Positions 19,108-26,660 of a stretch of 41,852 nt of DNA are shown piece by piece. This DNA comes from a virus: positions 1 to 41,852 of the IMG/VR virus record IMGVR_UViG_3300046485_000029; one strand, given 5' to 3'. The translations under genes and the position numbers were made by a program. The stretch's first letter is position 1. Each line of letters starts with the position of its first letter. The notes below the pieces were generated by a model, which searched no databases, was not told the DNA's origin, and was given only the letters and a program-made list of their open reading frames with translations.

Positions 19108-19164
19108 ACAAAAAAAAAGACCGGCATTGACCGGCCTAAAATCGCTCTAAGGAGATTATAACAG
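19108..19164 (+). promoter_or_regulatory. A-tract / hairpin leader 1
   Basis: Nine A residues (19110-19118), then CCGG-CATTGA-CCGG (19121-19134), then TCTAAGGAGATTATAACAG before ATG. On the minus strand the same DNA reads hairpin plus T-tract, like a short intrinsic terminator. The part from CCTAAAATCGC on is identical to leader 2. Confidence 0.5.
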
Positions 19165-19452
19165 ATGAAAGGAAAGTATTGCATCGTCAGGACTCAGTCA
19201 GCAGGAGTTTTCGCAGGGACCGTGAAGAGCATAAAGGGGAAGGAAGCGGTCTTGACTGACGCTCGCCGTCTCTGGTATTGGGCCGGAGCAGCGTCTCTTT
19301 CCCAGATGGCAGTCGATGGCACCAAAGACCCGAAGAACTGCAAATTCCCCGTGGCGGTCCCGGAGGTTTTATTAACGGAAGTCATCGAGGTTATTCCAGC
19401 AACCGAGCAGGCCAGAGCCTCAATATCAGGAGTGCCTGTATGGGAAAAATAA
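19165..19452 (+). CDS. DUF6948-like protein, copy A
   Basis: This 95-aa protein matches what I recall of the DUF6948 family: a Y-C-I-V-R-T-x-SAGV opening, TDARRLWYW at about 32-40, and VPEVLLTEVIEVIP near the end. It is common in phages, with no function known to me. Copy B at 19863 differs at only 5 residues, yet has many silent changes between codons 10 and 55 and near-identity afterwards. The start is supported by CTAAGGAGATT. The last 13 bases overlap the start of the Gly-repeat gene, so the two are probably translated together. Confidence 0.75.
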   Translation: MKGKYCIVRTQSAGVFAGTVKSIKGKEAVLTDARRLWYWAGAASLSQMAVDGTKDPKNCKFPVAVPEVLLTEVIEVIPATEQARASISGVPVWEK

Positions 19453-19715
19453 ATTCCGGTGACGGTGACGGTTCCGGTTCCGGTTACGGTTCCGGTGACG
19501 GTTACGGTGACGGTTCCGGTGACGGTTTCGGTTCCGGTTACGGTTCCGGTTACGGTTACGGTTCCGGTTCCGGTTACGGTTACGGTGACGGTGACGGTTC
19601 CGGTTCCGGTTACGGTTCCGGTTCCGGTGACGGTGACGGTTCCGGTTCCGGTTACGGTTACGGTTACGGTTACGGTTCCGGTTACGGTTACGGTGACGGT
19701 GACGGTTCCGGTTAA
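19440..19715 (+). CDS. (Gly-Ser/Asp/Tyr)n repeat protein, copy A (91 aa)
   Basis: ATG lies inside the end of the DUF6948-like gene (overlap ATGGGAAAAATAA). After MGKIN the product is an unbroken alternation of Gly with Ser, Asp or Tyr (one Phe), about 43 dipeptides. The DNA is hexamers GGTTCC, GGTGAC and GGTTAC, so unit gain or loss keeps the frame. There is no signal peptide and no charged residue except Asp. The ordering looks irregular, not a simple long unit. A disordered or stacked-sheet (silk-like) protein is possible. Its function is unknown, but a second copy with different codons argues for selection on the peptide. Confidence 0.65.
   Translation: MGKINSGDGDGSGSGYGSGDGYGDGSGDGFGSGYGSGYGYGSGSGYGYGDGDGSGSGYGSGSGDGDGSGSGYGYGYGYGSGYGYGDGDGSG
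19456..19713 (+). repeat. Hexanucleotide repeat array GGT-(TCC/GAC/TAC)
   Basis: About 43 tandem hexamers of three kinds, coding in frame for Gly-Ser, Gly-Asp and Gly-Tyr. Other frames give meaningless Val-Thr/Pro or Arg-Asn/His repeats. Confidence 0.9.
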
Positions 19716-19721
19716 AAAAAT

Positions 19722-19806
19722 AACGGCAAAGGAATGGGGGCGGGGTGATGACACTCTGGCCTTCGCCCTTCAATAACTGGAATTCGTGTACTGGCGGGAA
19801 TTATGA
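19722..19806 (+). other. Conserved downstream segment of cassette A
   Basis: This stretch recurs after copy B (20242-20327) with high identity and a one-base length difference. One frame reads …DDTLAFALQ, stop (19774-19776), LEFVYWREL, stop. Another gives a 20-aa ORF from ATG 19748 to 19810. It may be a decayed or very small gene, or simply DNA carried along in the duplication. Confidence 0.45.
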
Positions 19807-19808
19807 AT

Positions 19809-19862
19809 AAAAAAAAAGAGCCGAAAGATCGGCCTAAAATCGCTCTAAGGAGATTATAACAG
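19809..19862 (+). promoter_or_regulatory. A-tract / hairpin leader 2
   Basis: Nine A residues (19809-19817), hairpin GCCGA-AAGA-TCGGC (19820-19833), then CTAAGGAGATTATAACAG before ATG 19863. Same layout as leader 1, with a different but compatible stem. Confidence 0.55.
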
Positions 19863-20150
19863 ATGAAAGGAAAGTATTGCATCGTCAGGACGTATTCAGC
19901 AGGAGTCTTCGCAGGGACCGTAAAAAGCATCAAGGGGAAGCACGCCGTATTAACCGACGCTCGTCGCTTGTGGTACTGGTCGGGAGCTGCTTCGCTTTCG
20001 CAGATGGCCGTCGACGGCACCAAAGACCCGAAGAACTGCAAATTCCCCGTGGCGGTCCCGGAGGTTTTGTTAACGGAAGTTATCGAGGTTATCCCTGCAA
20101 CCGAGAAGGCCAGAGCCTCAATATCAGGAGTGCCTGTATGGGAAAGGTAA
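19863..20150 (+). CDS. DUF6948-like protein, copy B
   Basis: This 95-aa paralogue of the 19165 product differs at residues 11, 27, 40, 82 and 95. The middle third of the gene shows many synonymous differences, whereas codons about 55-75 and the last 15 are almost identical in DNA. This suggests selection on the protein plus local gene conversion. TDARRLWYW and VPEVLLTEVIEVIP are kept. The ribosome site is the same as in copy A. The end overlaps the start of the second Gly-repeat gene by 13 bases, repeating the two-gene layout. Confidence 0.75.
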   Translation: MKGKYCIVRTYSAGVFAGTVKSIKGKHAVLTDARRLWYWSGAASLSQMAVDGTKDPKNCKFPVAVPEVLLTEVIEVIPATEKARASISGVPVWER

Positions 20151-20233
20151 TTAATGGGTCTGGGTCTGGGTCTGGGGATGGGTATGGGGATGGGGATGGG
20201 TATGGGGATGGGTATGGGGATGGGGATGGGTAG
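20138..20233 (+). CDS. (Gly-Ser/Asp/Tyr)n repeat protein, copy B (31 aa)
   Basis: ATG lies inside the end of copy B of the DUF6948-like gene. After MGKVIN the product alternates Gly with Ser, Asp or Tyr for about 12 dipeptides and ends at TAG. Copy A codes the same pattern with GGT plus TCC/GAC/TAC, whereas this one uses GGG plus TCT/GAT/TAT, so the repeats did not arise by simple copying. It is about a third of the length of copy A. Its function is unknown. Confidence 0.6.
   Translation: MGKVINGSGSGSGDGYGDGDGYGDGYGDGDG
20156..20230 (+). repeat. G-run array with G-quadruplex potential
   Basis: Repeated GGG or GGGG runs separated by 2-3 bases (TCT, AT, TAT) fill the Gly-repeat gene of copy B. 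The + strand (the mRNA sense) easily satisfies the G3-N1-7 rule several times over. Copy A, with GGT codons, lacks such runs. Confidence 0.75.
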
Positions 20234-20241
20234 AGAAAACG

Positions 20242-20327
20242 AACGGCAAAGGAATTGGGGCGTAGGCGTTGACACTCTGACCTGCGCCCTTCAATAACTG
20301 GAATTCGTGTACTGGCGGGAATTATGA
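20242..20327 (+). other. Conserved downstream segment of cassette B
   Basis: Counterpart of 19722-19806. The last 40 bases are identical and again read CAA TAA CTG…TTA TGA (stop, then LEFVYWREL, stop). No ribosome site or convincing start is seen. It is part of the 241 bases between copy B and the ATPase gene, which otherwise hold only leader 3. Confidence 0.45.
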
Positions 20328-20336
20328 AAAAAGACC

Positions 20337-20390: not shown

Positions 20391-22367
20391 ATGAAGAAAA
20401 TAATTTTACAGCGCCTCACCCTTCGAGACTTTCAGGGCGGCAACTATAACCTGGAGGCCGACGGTCAAGATGTCTCAGCATTCGGAGACAACGGGACCGG
20501 CAAGACGCGACTTTCTTCGGCCTTTAGCTGGTTACTATTCGGGAAGGATTCCCTCGGCCGTAAGGAGTTCGACATTAAAAACCTTGACGACGCGGGAGAA
20601 GCGGCTCACGGGTTGGAACATACCGTCGAGGGCGTTCTCGGCATAAGCGGCGGGGTTGAAACCGGGCTGAAAAAGATCTACAAGGAAATCTGGAAAAAAA
20701 CGAGAGGCCGGGCTGAGAAAGAATTTTCCGGACATACGATTGATCACTTCATCGATGACGTCCCGAAATCCAAGGGCGAGTATGACGCTACGATCGCTGA
20801 GATCGCAGGGAGCGAAGAGACGTTCCGGCTTCTAACTTCGCCGACTGTCTTCCCCGCGCTTCCGTGGCAGAAGCAGCGCTCCTTACTCCTCGAAGTTTGT
20901 GGAGACATCACAGACGCTGACGTTATCGACTCCAATCCAGAGTTGAAGGATCTGCCGGCCATTCTCGGGAAGAAATCCCTCGACGATCACAGGGCAGTCG
21001 TCACAGCTGAAAAGAAGAAGATCAACGGGGTGCTGGAGACATTGCCGGTCAGGATCGACGAACAGAGGCGAATGATGCCGGACATCAGCGGCCTTCATAT
21101 CGATGACGTCGATAAACAGATCATCGCAGCAGGGAACTCATTGAACGATGCAAAGCTCAGGCTTGCCGGGACCGAGACGAGCGGCAGATACGCAGCGCTC
21201 TCAAAGGATCTGACCGACATTACCGCGAAGATTCAGAAGATGGAGAACGCTCACTACCTCGAAACGATGAAGCAGGCCGACAGATTGAATCAGGAGCTCA
21301 CTAGCTTCCAAACATTCCAGCAGGCGAATGGCCGAAGGGAAGCTGACTGCATTGCCGAGATTGGCAGATGGGAGAGAATGTCGGCGCTCCTCGACAATGA
21401 GCTGGATGCTCTTCGCCTTAAATGGAGCGAGGTCGATGCCCAGGAGTTCCAGGACACAACACAGGATCTATGCGCCGCGTGTGGCCAGTCCTTGCCCGTT
21501 GATCGCGTCCAGGCGGCTCGTGAAAAGGCACTTGCGATATTTAACAATAACAAGGCCGAGATGTTAGGCGGGATCGAGCGGAAGGGCCGAGAGACGAAGG
21601 AGAGCAGGGATAAGTATATCCAAGCTATAGATCGCCTCAAGGAAGAGATTGAATCCATTCAGGCGGGCGACTCATCAACGACATCGAAGATCAATGAACT
21701 GTCGACCGAGATTGTCCTCCTGAAGAAAAAAGCCGAATCCTACACCGACATCGACGGCCACACGGATCTCGTATTGAAGATGGCGGATATCAATGAGGCG
21801 ATAGCGCGGGAGAAGGCCGGGCATAAGGACGATTCCGGCAAGATCAAGGAAGAGATCGCAACGCTTCAGGTGCAACTCTCCGCGGCAAAAGAAAAAGCCG
21901 ATCGCTTTGTCAGGCGTGAAGCTGGAGAGAAGCGAATCAAGGATCTGATGGCGCAAGAGAAGACCCTCGCCGGGGAGCTGGAACGCATCGAGCGCGAGCT
22001 TTACCTTTGCGATGTATTTATCAAGACAAAGGTCAGCCTTCTGACATCGAAGATCAATGAGAAGTTTGAGGTCGTCCGGTTCAAGCTCTTCCACGAGAAC
22101 ATCAACGGCGGGATCGAACCCTGCTGTGAAATTACGGTTGGAGGCGTTCCCTTCAACAGCGGCCTCAATAATGCAGCAAGGATCAATGCGGGCCTCGACG
22201 TTATCCGGACCCTGCAGAAGCACTATGGAGTCTTTCCGCCGGTCATCATCGACAACAGGGAGTCAGTGACGCGGATCGTCGACATGCCCTGCCAGGTGAT
22301 CTCTCTGATCGTGAGCGAGGCTGACAAAGACCTCCGTGTGGAAGTCGGGGATAGGGTGGCGGCATGA
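20391..22367 (+). CDS. SbcC/Rad50-like ATPase with zinc hook
   Basis: This 658-aa SMC-type protein starts I-I-L-Q-R-L-T-L-R-D-F and has Walker A GDNGTGKT at residues 32-39. Long coiled-coil arms (about 200-350 and 370-560) flank CAACG (Cys361, Cys364), which fits a Rad50-type zinc hook. The C-terminal lobe contains PPVIIDNRESV as a probable Walker B/D-loop, though acidic residues after it differ from the classic form. Such proteins act in DNA end processing, usually with an SbcD-like nuclease, which is not encoded nearby. It heads the recombination operon and overlaps the next gene as ATGA. Confidence 0.85.
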   Translation: MKKIILQRLTLRDFQGGNYNLEADGQDVSAFGDNGTGKTRLSSAFSWLLFGKDSLGRKEFDIKNLDDAGEAAHGLEHTVEGVLGISGGVETGLKKIYKEIWKKTRGRAEKEFSGHTIDHFIDDVPKSKGEYDATIAEIAGSEETFRLLTSPTVFPALPWQKQRSLLLEVCGDITDADVIDSNPELKDLPAILGKKSLDDHRAVVTAEKKKINGVLETLPVRIDEQRRMMPDISGLHIDDVDKQIIAAGNSLNDAKLRLAGTETSGRYAALSKDLTDITAKIQKMENAHYLETMKQADRLNQELTSFQTFQQANGRREADCIAEIGRWERMSALLDNELDALRLKWSEVDAQEFQDTTQDLCAACGQSLPVDRVQAAREKALAIFNNNKAEMLGGIERKGRETKESRDKYIQAIDRLKEEIESIQAGDSSTTSKINELSTEIVLLKKKAESYTDIDGHTDLVLKMADINEAIAREKAGHKDDSGKIKEEIATLQVQLSAAKEKADRFVRREAGEKRIKDLMAQEKTLAGELERIERELYLCDVFIKTKVSLLTSKINEKFEVVRFKLFHENINGGIEPCCEITVGGVPFNSGLNNAARINAGLDVIRTLQKHYGVFPPVIIDNRESVTRIVDMPCQVISLIVSEADKDLRVEVGDRVAA

Positions 22368-22771: not shown

Positions 22772-23764
22772 ATGACAACAGCAACGAAGGAAGCACCAGG
22801 CAACGGAACAAAGACGGTACCCGCGAAGCAATCCGAAAACCTCCTAGCGGTCACCAAGAGAACTTATGTTGACGTGATCTCGGAGAAGGCGCGGCAGTTT
22901 ATCGCTAAGGGAGAGCTTCAGCTCCCGAAAGATTACAGCGTCAATAATGCGCTCAAGGCGGCGTGGCTAATTCTACAGAGTGTTGAAAACAACAATAAGC
23001 AGCTGGCCTTGAAATGTTGCACGCCTGACAGTATAGCGAATGCCCTCCTTGACATGATCGTCATGGGGCTGAATCCGAGCAAAAAACAGTGTTACTTCAT
23101 CGTTTATGGCGACAAGCTCACCTGTCAGAGGTCGTACATGGGCGCGATGGTCGTCGCAAAGATGGTGCAGCCGAAGATCGACGACTTCGCGCATGCCGTC
23201 GTTTACGAGAAGGACGTCTTTAAGTATGGCATTAAGAACGGCAAAAAGTTCGTCACCGAGCACGAGCAGGACATTCACAATGTGGACAAGAAGAAGATCA
23301 TCGCAGCTTACTGCATCGCACTGGATGCGAACGGAGAACCTTTCAAGACGGAGATCATGACCATGGCCGATATCGTGACCGCGTGGAGCCAGTCGAAGGT
23401 TAAGCCGGTTGAGAACGGAAAGGTCAAAGACGACAGCACTCACGGGAAGTTTACAGAAGCGATGGCGCTGAAAACGGTCATCAACAAAACATGCAAATTA
23501 ATTATCAATGCTTCTTCCGACAACGTGCTTCTGCGTGAAGCGATGAGCAGGGCCGATGAACTTACTGACATGGCAGTCGTCGAGGCAGAGATCGAGCAGG
23601 AGGCCAATACGGGAGAGGTCTTGGGCATAGAAGGGCCGCAAGAGCCTATAGACATCACGGCTGAATCCAAAATCGACGATCCGCCGGAGATTACCGAAGC
23701 GGAAATGCAGAAACAGGCCGACGAGGCGAATAAGGAACTGCAAAAGAAGGGGCCGAACTTCTAA
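22772..23764 (+). CDS. recT: RecT-family single-strand annealing protein
   Basis: This 330-aa protein has a disordered N-terminus and then the RecT core (about 40-265): LPKDYSVNNALKAAWLIL, CTPDSIANALLDMIVMGLNP, KKQCYFIVYGDKLTC-QRSYMGAM and GKFTEAMALKTVINKTCK. It anneals complementary single strands in phage recombination and replication. The C-terminal 65 residues are acidic and may bind host SSB-associated partners. TAAGGAGAAAAT precedes the ATG. No RecE-type exonuclease gene is beside it, and the metallo-beta-lactamase-fold gene downstream may fill that place. Confidence 0.92.
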   Translation: MTTATKEAPGNGTKTVPAKQSENLLAVTKRTYVDVISEKARQFIAKGELQLPKDYSVNNALKAAWLILQSVENNNKQLALKCCTPDSIANALLDMIVMGLNPSKKQCYFIVYGDKLTCQRSYMGAMVVAKMVQPKIDDFAHAVVYEKDVFKYGIKNGKKFVTEHEQDIHNVDKKKIIAAYCIALDANGEPFKTEIMTMADIVTAWSQSKVKPVENGKVKDDSTHGKFTEAMALKTVINKTCKLIINASSDNVLLREAMSRADELTDMAVVEAEIEQEANTGEVLGIEGPQEPIDITAESKIDDPPEITEAEMQKQADEANKELQKKGPNF

Positions 23765-26038: not shown

Positions 26039-26660
26039 CGACCTCATAGATGACGAGAAGCAAGCAAAGATGAGTGACCGGACCTTCAGGGTTTTCATAC
26101 TCCTTCTTTGCTATGCCAAGCAGCTCAATAATAATGGCAAGATCGAGAAGCCACTTTCTGACATTGCATGGAGGATTCGTAAGGACATAAAGACACTAAC
26201 GGCCTCCTTAAATGACATGCAATCTCTTCGGATTATCACATTTAATGAGCAGGGCGTAACGTTCATAAATTGGGACAAGAGGCAGTTTCAATCTGATGGC
26301 TCATATGAAAGAGTGAAACGTTTCAGAAACGGTAAGAGAAACGATGATGCGCCGTTACAGAAACGGCACCAGAGTACAGAGTCAGATACAGAGTCAGATA
26401 CAGAGTCAGATACAGATAAGAAAAAGAAAAAAAGAAAATCCCCCATCCCCCCTGAATTTGATATTTCTGAAAGAGTAAAGTTATGGGCTGAAAAAAATGG
26501 GCTCGAAAAACTAGAAGAGCATTTAGACGCATTCAAAAGAAAGGTGGCCGCGAAAGGCTACGAATACATCGACTGGGATTCTGCTTTCATGGAGGCCATT
26601 CGCGAAGACTGGGCGAAATTAAATGGCAAAAAGAAAGGAGCCGGATATTTTGATTCCTGA
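26016..26660 (+). CDS. Replication initiation protein (lambda O / DnaD-like)
   Basis: The product is 214 aa from ATG 26016, chosen for CGGAGGAAAA upstream. The N-terminal 110 residues look like the winged-helix domain of phage replisome organisers: MAWLRLYDDLIDDEKQAKMS, LSDIAWRIRKDIKTLTASLNDM, FINWDKRQFQSD. A Lys/Arg linker follows (TESDT repeats, KKKKKRK), then a C-terminal helical domain with YIDWDSAFMEAIREDW that is typical of the end of such proteins. The gene carries iterons, as lambda O does. Confidence 0.8.
   Translation: MAWLRLYDDLIDDEKQAKMSDRTFRVFILLLCYAKQLNNNGKIEKPLSDIAWRIRKDIKTLTASLNDMQSLRIITFNEQGVTFINWDKRQFQSDGSYERVKRFRNGKRNDDAPLQKRHQSTESDTESDTESDTDKKKKKRKSPIPPEFDISERVKLWAEKNGLEKLEEHLDAFKRKVAAKGYEYIDWDSAFMEAIREDWAKLNGKKKGAGYFDS
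26376..26417 (+). repeat. Iterons: three 12-bp repeats, candidate replication origin
   Basis: ACAGAGTCAGAT occurs at 26376, 26388 and 26400 plus half a unit at 26412, followed by an A-rich stretch to 26438. Inverted repeats GAAACGTTTC (26315-26324) and CCGTT-ACAGA-AACGG lie upstream. Lambda ori has the same plan inside gene O. Confidence 0.6.

Follow-up and report, generated by a model that had tools for sequence, protein, structure and literature searches.

Single-stranded DNA (ssDNA)-binding protein SSB ends in a Gly-rich linker and an acidic tip. According to PMC5606850, SSB is autoinhibited by its own tail, and in Escherichia coli Hfq RNA and the acidic tip of the tail compete for the Sm core, with linker length setting the strength of this effect. 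In Acinetobacter baumannii Hfq, the number of Gly-rich GGFGGQ repeats matters (PMC11617691). Here we report on virus record IMGVR_UViG_3300046485_000029, analysed over its whole length of 41,852 bases (hereafter the window). At 19165-20233 it carries a tandem pair of two-gene cassettes, each consisting of a DUF6948 gene (Pfam PF22253) and an overlapping gene for a chain in which Gly alternates with a second residue, X (Gly-X). The pair is conserved, with overlap or close spacing, in very different phages, and this is well supported. It is apparently an undescribed, widespread phage gene pair. Our literature search, which covered few papers from subscription journals and no bioRxiv preprints, returned no paper on DUF6948, and none among the papers listed for Gly-rich, repeat or Sm-like phage proteins concerned such a pair.

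The DUF6948/Gly-X cassette and its occurrence

The initial annotation of the window had described a duplicated DUF6948 cassette with an overlapping Gly-X gene, and its limits were confirmed to the base. The cassette features are:

19149..19154, + strand: Shine-Dalgarno sequence AAGGAG of the copy A DUF6948 gene (sequence reading)
19165..19452, + strand: copy A DUF6948 protein, 95 amino acids (aa), predicted Sm/LSm fold (PF22253 E 1.2e-29, 102.7 bits; AlphaFold2 predicted local distance difference test (pLDDT) 98.3)
19428..19432, + strand: AGGAG within the copy A DUF6948 gene, 7-nt spacer to the Gly-X ATG (sequence reading)
19440..19715, + strand: copy A Gly-X protein, 91 aa, GGT + TCC/TAC/GAC array (open reading frame (ORF); Tandem Repeats Finder (TRF))
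19716..19806, + strand: 3' flank common to both copies (alignment)
19847..19852, + strand: Shine-Dalgarno sequence AAGGAG of the copy B DUF6948 gene (sequence reading)
19863..20150, + strand: copy B DUF6948 protein, 95 aa (PF22253 E 9.6e-30, 103 bits; five replacements relative to copy A)
20126..20130, + strand: AGGAG, 7-nt spacer to the copy B Gly-X ATG (sequence reading)
20138..20233, + strand: copy B Gly-X protein, 31 aa, GGG + TCT/TAT/GAT array (ORF; TRF)

In each copy the Gly-X ATG lies 10 nt ahead of the first base of the DUF6948 stop codon, in a different frame. Both DUF6948 copies exceed the Pfam cut-off of 27 bits and are members of the family. They share 90/95 residues; 28/95 codons differ (23 silent, five replacing), and differences at the three codon positions number 5/1/27, so that the partner is conserved despite silent divergence, as initially annotated. 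The same annotation had noted one peptide rule written in two codon sets, which also stands. Array A comprises 42 Gly-X units in which Gly is GGT throughout and X is TCC (16), TAC (14), GAC (11) or TTC (1), whereas array B pairs GGG with TCT, GAT and TAT. Both arrays were detected by TRF. Besides the genes, the upstream leaders and ~90 nt 3' of the arrays are common to both copies in the alignment, which argues that the entire cassette was duplicated. We infer that the arrays were rewritten after this duplication. The 3' flanks (19716-19806 and 20234-20330) are alike. Past the stop of array A there is a short Gly-rich stretch in frame (NGKGMGAG), and a similar stretch follows copy B in another frame; these are perhaps remnants of an older tail.

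We surveyed 87 DUF6948 loci, comprising 77 from a protein search of viral contigs, 8 of 15 GenBank phage records and the two window copies. These include near-identical loci and arrays running off their contig, leaving 77 distinct arrays. A Gly-X frame was present at all of them (87/87), starting between -14 and +9 relative to the DUF6948 stop: at -10 in 70 loci (64 ATG, 5 GTG, 1 TTG), at +4 in seven, at -14 in four and elsewhere in six. The shortest chain had 16 aa (L050). Another six of the 15 GenBank records (all Pectobacterium phages) also held the pair, and the fifteenth repeats PhiPLPE in its RefSeq version. In prokaryote assemblies, a profile search found 53 DUF6948 loci, 44 with a Gly-X frame and five too near a contig end. 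The four without a recognisable array comprised two that look eroded (L224, L253), one cut by the contig end with a short Gly-X start visible (L258) and one partial DUF6948 hit (L259). DUF6948 occurred in Pectobacterium, Iodobacter, Vibrio and Chlorobiaceae phages and in assemblies whose labels cover many phyla. Phages across many host phyla apparently use the pair, although most of these assemblies are metagenome-assembled genomes (MAGs) with uncertain binning, and the labelled phyla may differ from the phage hosts.

Two further partner families, R1 (signature RGFVYVGDV...WGTTKGLGELV) and R2 (RGWIFAGDV...HVFKWESIGF), were linked to DUF6948 by profile comparison. With hhalign, DUF6948 matched R1 (pairwise E 3.6e-5, probability 71.5; deeper alignments E 1.4e-6, probability 90.3) and R1 matched R2 (E 4e-13, probability 97.9; deeper alignments 4.1e-10, probability 96.7), while the direct match between DUF6948 and R2 was weak (E 0.0039, probability 8.6; deeper alignments 0.001, probability 21.1). 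The scanned members had no Pfam family above cut-off (L101 and L261 for R1, L137 for R2) and no NCBIfam match (L101 and L137). A partner-first search kept the 80 best loci of each family, out of 169 confirmed for R1 and 260 for R2, and looked for a run of at least four Gly-X units with Tyr within 400 nt downstream. Such a run was found in 68/76 usable R1 loci (four more end too soon) and in 77/77 usable R2 loci (three more end too soon). Among the eight R1 loci without it, two have degenerate Gly-rich frames (L285, L337), one has a Gly-Phe/Asp run that stops at the edge of its contig (L335) and five have none. The overlap stressed in the initial annotation needs one correction: in the remote families the second gene often abuts its partner instead, as it mostly does in R2 and in the Rheinheimera Barba phages.

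In the reverse direction, a codon-neutral pattern (GGNKMY x8) matched at least 120 stretches, which after filtering gave 100 arrays in 91 loci. With a DUF6948 profile iterated with hits from these loci (E up to 0.01), 57 arrays had a hit adjoining or in frame, 19 were too near the locus end and 24 (17 loci) had none. Nine of these 17 loci have an R1 or R2 protein upstream, and another (L173) a similar protein by eye. Overall, a Gly-X ORF stood at the end of 267/293 partner-family ORFs compared to 24/10,088 other ORFs in the same loci, the latter being stop-to-stop frames of at least 80 codons on both strands, real genes or not. Since the 267/293 includes loci found through their arrays, the counts of 87/87, 44/53, 68/76 and 77/77 are less biased. 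Tandem Gly-X genes with conserved ends were observed at L128:1720-2800 (five) and L084:1200-2000 (at least three), and L128 has a DUF6948 profile hit further upstream (696-977). At L194:826-1020 a different small protein (YLDQYGNAFWARTLKEL..) lies upstream of the Gly-X frame and is perhaps another partner family.

Selection acts on the peptide rule

Codon sets and lengths of the arrays change while the rule persists. Across the 77 distinct arrays, X (2,710 residues, counted over whole ORFs and hence with a small share from fused domains) was Ser in 949, Tyr in 782, Asp in 605, Asn in 130, Ala in 40 and Glu in 35 cases, with others making up the rest. Ala was thus rare, though one step from both Ser and Asp. 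The dominant Gly codon was GGC in 57 arrays, GGT in nine, GGG in nine and GGA in two, and the dominant Ser codon was TCC in 52, TCT in 13, AGC in six and AGT in two, with none in four; TCC and AGC are more than one step apart. Codon choice differs among phages, yet is nearly homogeneous inside most arrays. The Gly-rich rule is also kept in degenerate, non-repetitive arrays (L051, L077, L040, L200). In nonredundant sets restricted to loci with a Gly-X frame (109 DUF6948, 66 R1, 52 R2), arrays of at least 10 units almost always contained an acidic X (lacking in 3/107, 0/62 and 0/52, respectively) and Tyr, Phe or Trp (lacking in 1/107, 0/62 and 0/52), and mostly Ser, Asn or Thr (lacking in 0/107, 9/62 and 1/52). 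A Shine-Dalgarno core was enriched before the Gly-X start in DUF6948 loci (45/109 vs 545/3502 control windows), and in R1 it preceded 26/66 starts vs 130/1710 control windows.

Length changes in whole hexamer units. Eight related Pectobacterium/Dickeya phages share an almost identical partner, but their Gly-X ORFs measure 270, 258, 252, 222, 222, 222, 204 or 162 nt, in steps of 6, with units reshuffled between a constant start (MSKLIKPE[KR]YG) and a constant end (GEG, in 7/8). The Gly-X protein is the same in two of these phages, Abuela and Ymer. The R1 pair is present in 115 Rheinheimera Barba phage records. Among the 60 listed, its span is 711 bases in 41, 717 in 17, 741 in one and 753 in one, and in five isolates the added bases are whole Gly-X units. 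The Rheinheimera phage early cluster consists mainly of replication genes, and the Gly-X pair gene is not named in the available part of that account (PMC9305737); a term search of PMC6715854 yielded nothing on virion or expression data for the pair. A study of hypervariable loci in the skin virome, considered as a related case, proved unrelated from the portion available (PMC5299996).

These results bear on what the initial annotation had proposed and asked of relatives. Its suggestion that the peptide pattern itself is selected gained support from the rule held over 77 distinct arrays with differing Gly and Ser codons, and its view that length changes in whole hexamers with the frame kept agrees with both the 91 vs 31 aa in the window and the 162-270 nt in the Pectobacterium/Dickeya phages. 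A survey of DUF6948 genes for the repeat frame found it in 87/87 loci and in 44/53 prokaryote-assembly loci, with both codon sets and repeat numbers varying. The reverse pattern, a frame routinely broken while DUF6948 is kept, was also sought: a Gly-X run resumed in another frame in 1/62 distinct closed arrays (L200), a test that misses short remnants such as the stretch after array A, and 4/53 loci had no recognisable array.

The arrays plainly gain and lose hexamers, as a non-functional microsatellite ORF produced by slippage would. We give such a by-product next to no credence, because frame, start site, residue set and position are kept across hundreds of loci, the run almost never resumes in another frame, and the chains have conserved non-repeat N-termini (P-V/I/L/M-G in 45/52 R2 chains). 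L-D-G is present in 19/66 R1 chains. It is also highly unlikely, in our judgement, that the array acts as RNA or DNA, its mRNA hexamers being binding sites through which the Sm-like protein regulates itself. Hfq binds triplet repeats, the array lies in the mRNA of a partner with a predicted Sm fold, and codons are mostly homogeneous within one phage; however, third positions and even the Ser boxes (TCN/AGY) vary among phages under an unchanged peptide rule, DNA that is degenerate and non-repetitive still encodes Gly-X (L051, L077), and the folded domains fused to some arrays (see below) require translation. The pair offers a clean case in which selection keeps a low-complexity peptide grammar while the DNA is repeatedly rewritten, and the natural length series in cultured Pectobacterium and Rheinheimera phages make its function testable.

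A conserved RNA structure in the array was considered and rejected, which also counts against an RNA-level role, with folding z-scores of -2.0, +1.5 and +4.0 for three arrays, of opposite signs. No Rfam family scored above its gathering threshold; the sole sub-threshold match, anti-hemB at 19111-19187 on the - strand (21.2 vs 49.5 bits), was taken as chance.

Predicted fold of the partner and candidate functions

Beyond the initial annotation, the analysis added a predicted Sm/LSm fold for the partner, the two further partner families and arrays running into a folded domain. The AlphaFold2 model of DUF6948, built from a 131-sequence alignment, reached pLDDT 98.3 and a predicted template modelling score (pTM) of 0.89. 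Among the best 50 of 944 Foldseek matches in the PDB (E up to 10), 34 were named Sm/LSm and 16 were spliceosome or small nuclear ribonucleoprotein (snRNP) chains, presumably Sm proteins too, with a best E of 9.3e-4 (probability 1.00). The 50 matches listed by VIA were of the same two kinds (Z from 6.8 up to 7.8, the latter at a root-mean-square deviation of 2.0 over 62 residues). DUF6948 is accordingly predicted to form a five-stranded Sm/LSm barrel. Its near-invariant residues include R9, G14, G18, R34, R35, W37, W39, G52, K60, E75 and A83. All 30 scanned members of set A2 match the DUF6948 family, and a sequence search for a solved relative gave none that convinced (one match, E 0.61). Among viral models, Foldseek matched the DUF6948 model to DUF6948 proteins and, at E 2.6e-5, to a 104-aa protein from Rheinheimera phage barba_12-9E that is uncharacterised and may be the Barba R1 protein, whose length it shares.

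By analogy with Hfq, we tentatively favour, at slightly less than an even chance, a split nucleic-acid-handling module in which an Sm-fold core is served by the Gly-X chain as a disordered, acidic, tyrosine-bearing tail in trans. The first gene would encode a small Sm/LSm-fold protein (DUF6948 and relatives), a ring by analogy, and the second a disordered chain in which X is polar (Ser/Asn), aromatic (mostly Tyr) or acidic (Asp). The chain would play the role of the acidic C-terminal tail of Hfq, or of the SSB tail with its Gly-rich linker and acidic tip, touching the Sm core and competing with or freeing nucleic acid, while weak Tyr/Arg contacts may cluster rings. Gain or loss of hexamers would adjust tail length with the frame kept, and separate genes would let tail length and stoichiometry vary freely. 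We infer that the chain is disordered, that the rings form, that the two proteins bind each other, and that they act on RNA or ssDNA early in infection, the timing being suggested by gene context.

That context looks like an early replication/recombination region, not a structural one. Other genes of the window encode an integrase, terminase, portal and tail proteins, and downstream of the cassettes lie:

20391..22367, + strand: next gene, SbcC-like ATPase (PHROG 77, E 6.7e-69)
22772..23764, + strand: RecT-like annealing protein (PF03837 E 4.8e-33; PHROG 148 E 2e-58)

Neighbours of at least 110 aa on the same strand within 3 kb, from 110 nonredundant loci, were scanned against PHROGs (116 downstream and 126 upstream proteins, hand-trimmed from 151 and 192). 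By raw count, the commonest matches were replication initiation proteins, DnaB-like helicases, primases, Erf/RecT/Bet/Sak4 annealing proteins, methyltransferases, ParB-like proteins and integrases. No PHROG family occurred in more than five neighbours, and one protein can match several. A second hexamer array in the window (26370-26418; CAGATA/CAGAGT) encodes a Ser-Asp-Thr-Glu stretch in a replication-initiation-like protein. At L099 the R1-Gly-X pair is followed by one small ORF and then by RecT-like and YqaJ-like genes (names by eye).

Fusions were also found. In one locus (L105) a single frame encodes DUF6948 followed by Gly-X, with the domains ordered as in Hfq, and PHROG 18306 matches DUF6948 and the Gly-X chain at separate profile positions, which suggests further fusions of this kind. 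At L057:4276-6414 the Gly-X frame extends in frame into a long ParB-type-like protein (by eye). In 37 loci, including L061 (4465-4926), L055, L068, L072, L074-L076 and L093, the Gly-X ORF runs on into a C-terminal domain of ~150 residues (..WHHxLTGSCxxGRxxF..), which is undescribed and was modelled confidently (pLDDT 95.8). It occurs in several phages and MAGs labelled faecal or gut, and the Gly-X part is short in L248. Scans of its members against Pfam, PHROG, NCBIfam and PDB sequences gave low-complexity matches to the array and none to the domain in the members covered. A known fold for it was rejected (Foldseek best E 0.34; VIA best Z 6.3, over its helical part), as were its homology to DUF6948 (hhalign probability 0.3) and the Pfam TrAA12 match of the Gly-X part (below cut-off, low-complexity). 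A leucine-rich-repeat-like protein bearing a relative of the domain lies directly upstream of the R1-Gly-X pair of L099 (7593-8216, - strand).

Several results weigh against the split module. In seven of the 17 array loci without a DUF6948 hit (L084, L116, L128, L142, L153, L175, L194), no such partner adjoins the array as judged by eye from upstream ORFs, and so the array does not strictly need an adjoining partner. A few Lys/Arg residues occur as X in 43/109 DUF6948, 10/66 R1 and 19/52 R2 proteins, and the Shine-Dalgarno core was not enriched before the R2 Gly-X start (3/52 vs 103/1759 control windows). The VIA Z values stay below 8, the tool's caution line, and such values may reflect merely a common arrangement; even so, so uniform a list of matches speaks for a genuine Sm barrel. 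None of the 30 DUF6948 members of set A2 matched a Pfam LSM or Hfq model at E up to 10. The Asp and Asn of the Sm1 motif bind uridine, and these canonical residues are not conserved in DUF6948 (Asp in 44/131 sequences, mostly Glu and Val; register by eye). None of the three Sm-like families is strongly basic (median net charge +2 for DUF6948, +1 for R1 and -2 for R2), and docking of an acidic tail by electrostatics hence has little support, least of all in R2. Finally, in the 37 loci with a folded C-terminal domain, some of them near-identical, the array is a linker within a larger protein.

Core proteins that are weakly charged and have lost the Sm pocket would also fit another explanation, which we regard as unlikely but worth keeping in view. 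Here the Gly-X protein would be a scaffold or condensate former, with Gly/Ser/Asp spacers and Tyr stickers under a silk-like rule, that concentrates replication and recombination proteins, the Sm-like protein being a client or anchor. It is consistent with Tyr in nearly all chains, alternating Gly, a scarcity of Lys/Arg, freely varying length, the fused C-terminal domains and neighbours such as primases, helicases and Erf/RecT/Bet proteins; however, some chains of merely 16-31 aa are short for a scaffold, and a generic scaffold would not need near-strict coupling to one partner superfamily. A bolder reading is a split Sm system in which a separate tail gene turns over hexamers to change its length and order, under selection for a two-letter peptide grammar of Gly and then a polar, aromatic or acidic residue. 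It would build a tunable condensate with RNA or ssDNA that serves phage replication, a counterpart of LSm bodies in prokaryotic viruses, a possibility that we consider speculative and would not expect to hold.

The pair is also small, phage-borne and hypervariable and occurs in phages of varied hosts, as might a counter-defence or host-takeover module whose Gly-X protein, delivered by its partner, blocks a host machine such as a ClpXP-type protease. Gly-rich chains can clog such proteases. We consider this improbable, given that length and order vary while the chemistry does not, unlike an arms-race surface; PADLOC matched 0/6 proteins, which is weak evidence as its library consists of defence proteins.

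Comparison with known systems

Were the Hfq-like model false, the pair would still be a new system; were it true, the pair may count as a new split variant of the known design of Sm core plus tail. The window partner is a member of Pfam DUF6948 (PF22253), an entry that names no function, fold or partner. Silk fibroin is a secreted protein of Gly-X repeats with much Ala and no Asp. The phage chains resemble it in the alternating Gly and in having Ser and Tyr among X, and differ in that Ala is rare and Asp common. Like SSB, the pair would combine a disordered Gly-rich chain bearing acidic residues with a small beta-barrel protein that binds nucleic acid, in the context of replication/recombination, whereas SSB has an OB fold, a tail in cis and no Gly-X rule.

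Closer likenesses are found in Hfq. In A. baumannii (PMC11617691), an Sm domain carries a Gly-rich aromatic repeat with acidic residues, and repeat number matters; there, however, a single bacterial gene is involved, and its locus did not vary among the eight clinical isolates that were sequenced. Hfq with its acidic tail (PMC5606850) likewise joins an Sm-fold core to an acidic disordered tail whose length tunes its action, and the fused locus L105 has the same domain order. In contrast, the phage tail is encoded by a separate overlapping or abutting gene, as in both window copies, is strictly Gly-X and hypervariable in length, and would serve a core without the canonical RNA-pocket residues of Sm proteins.

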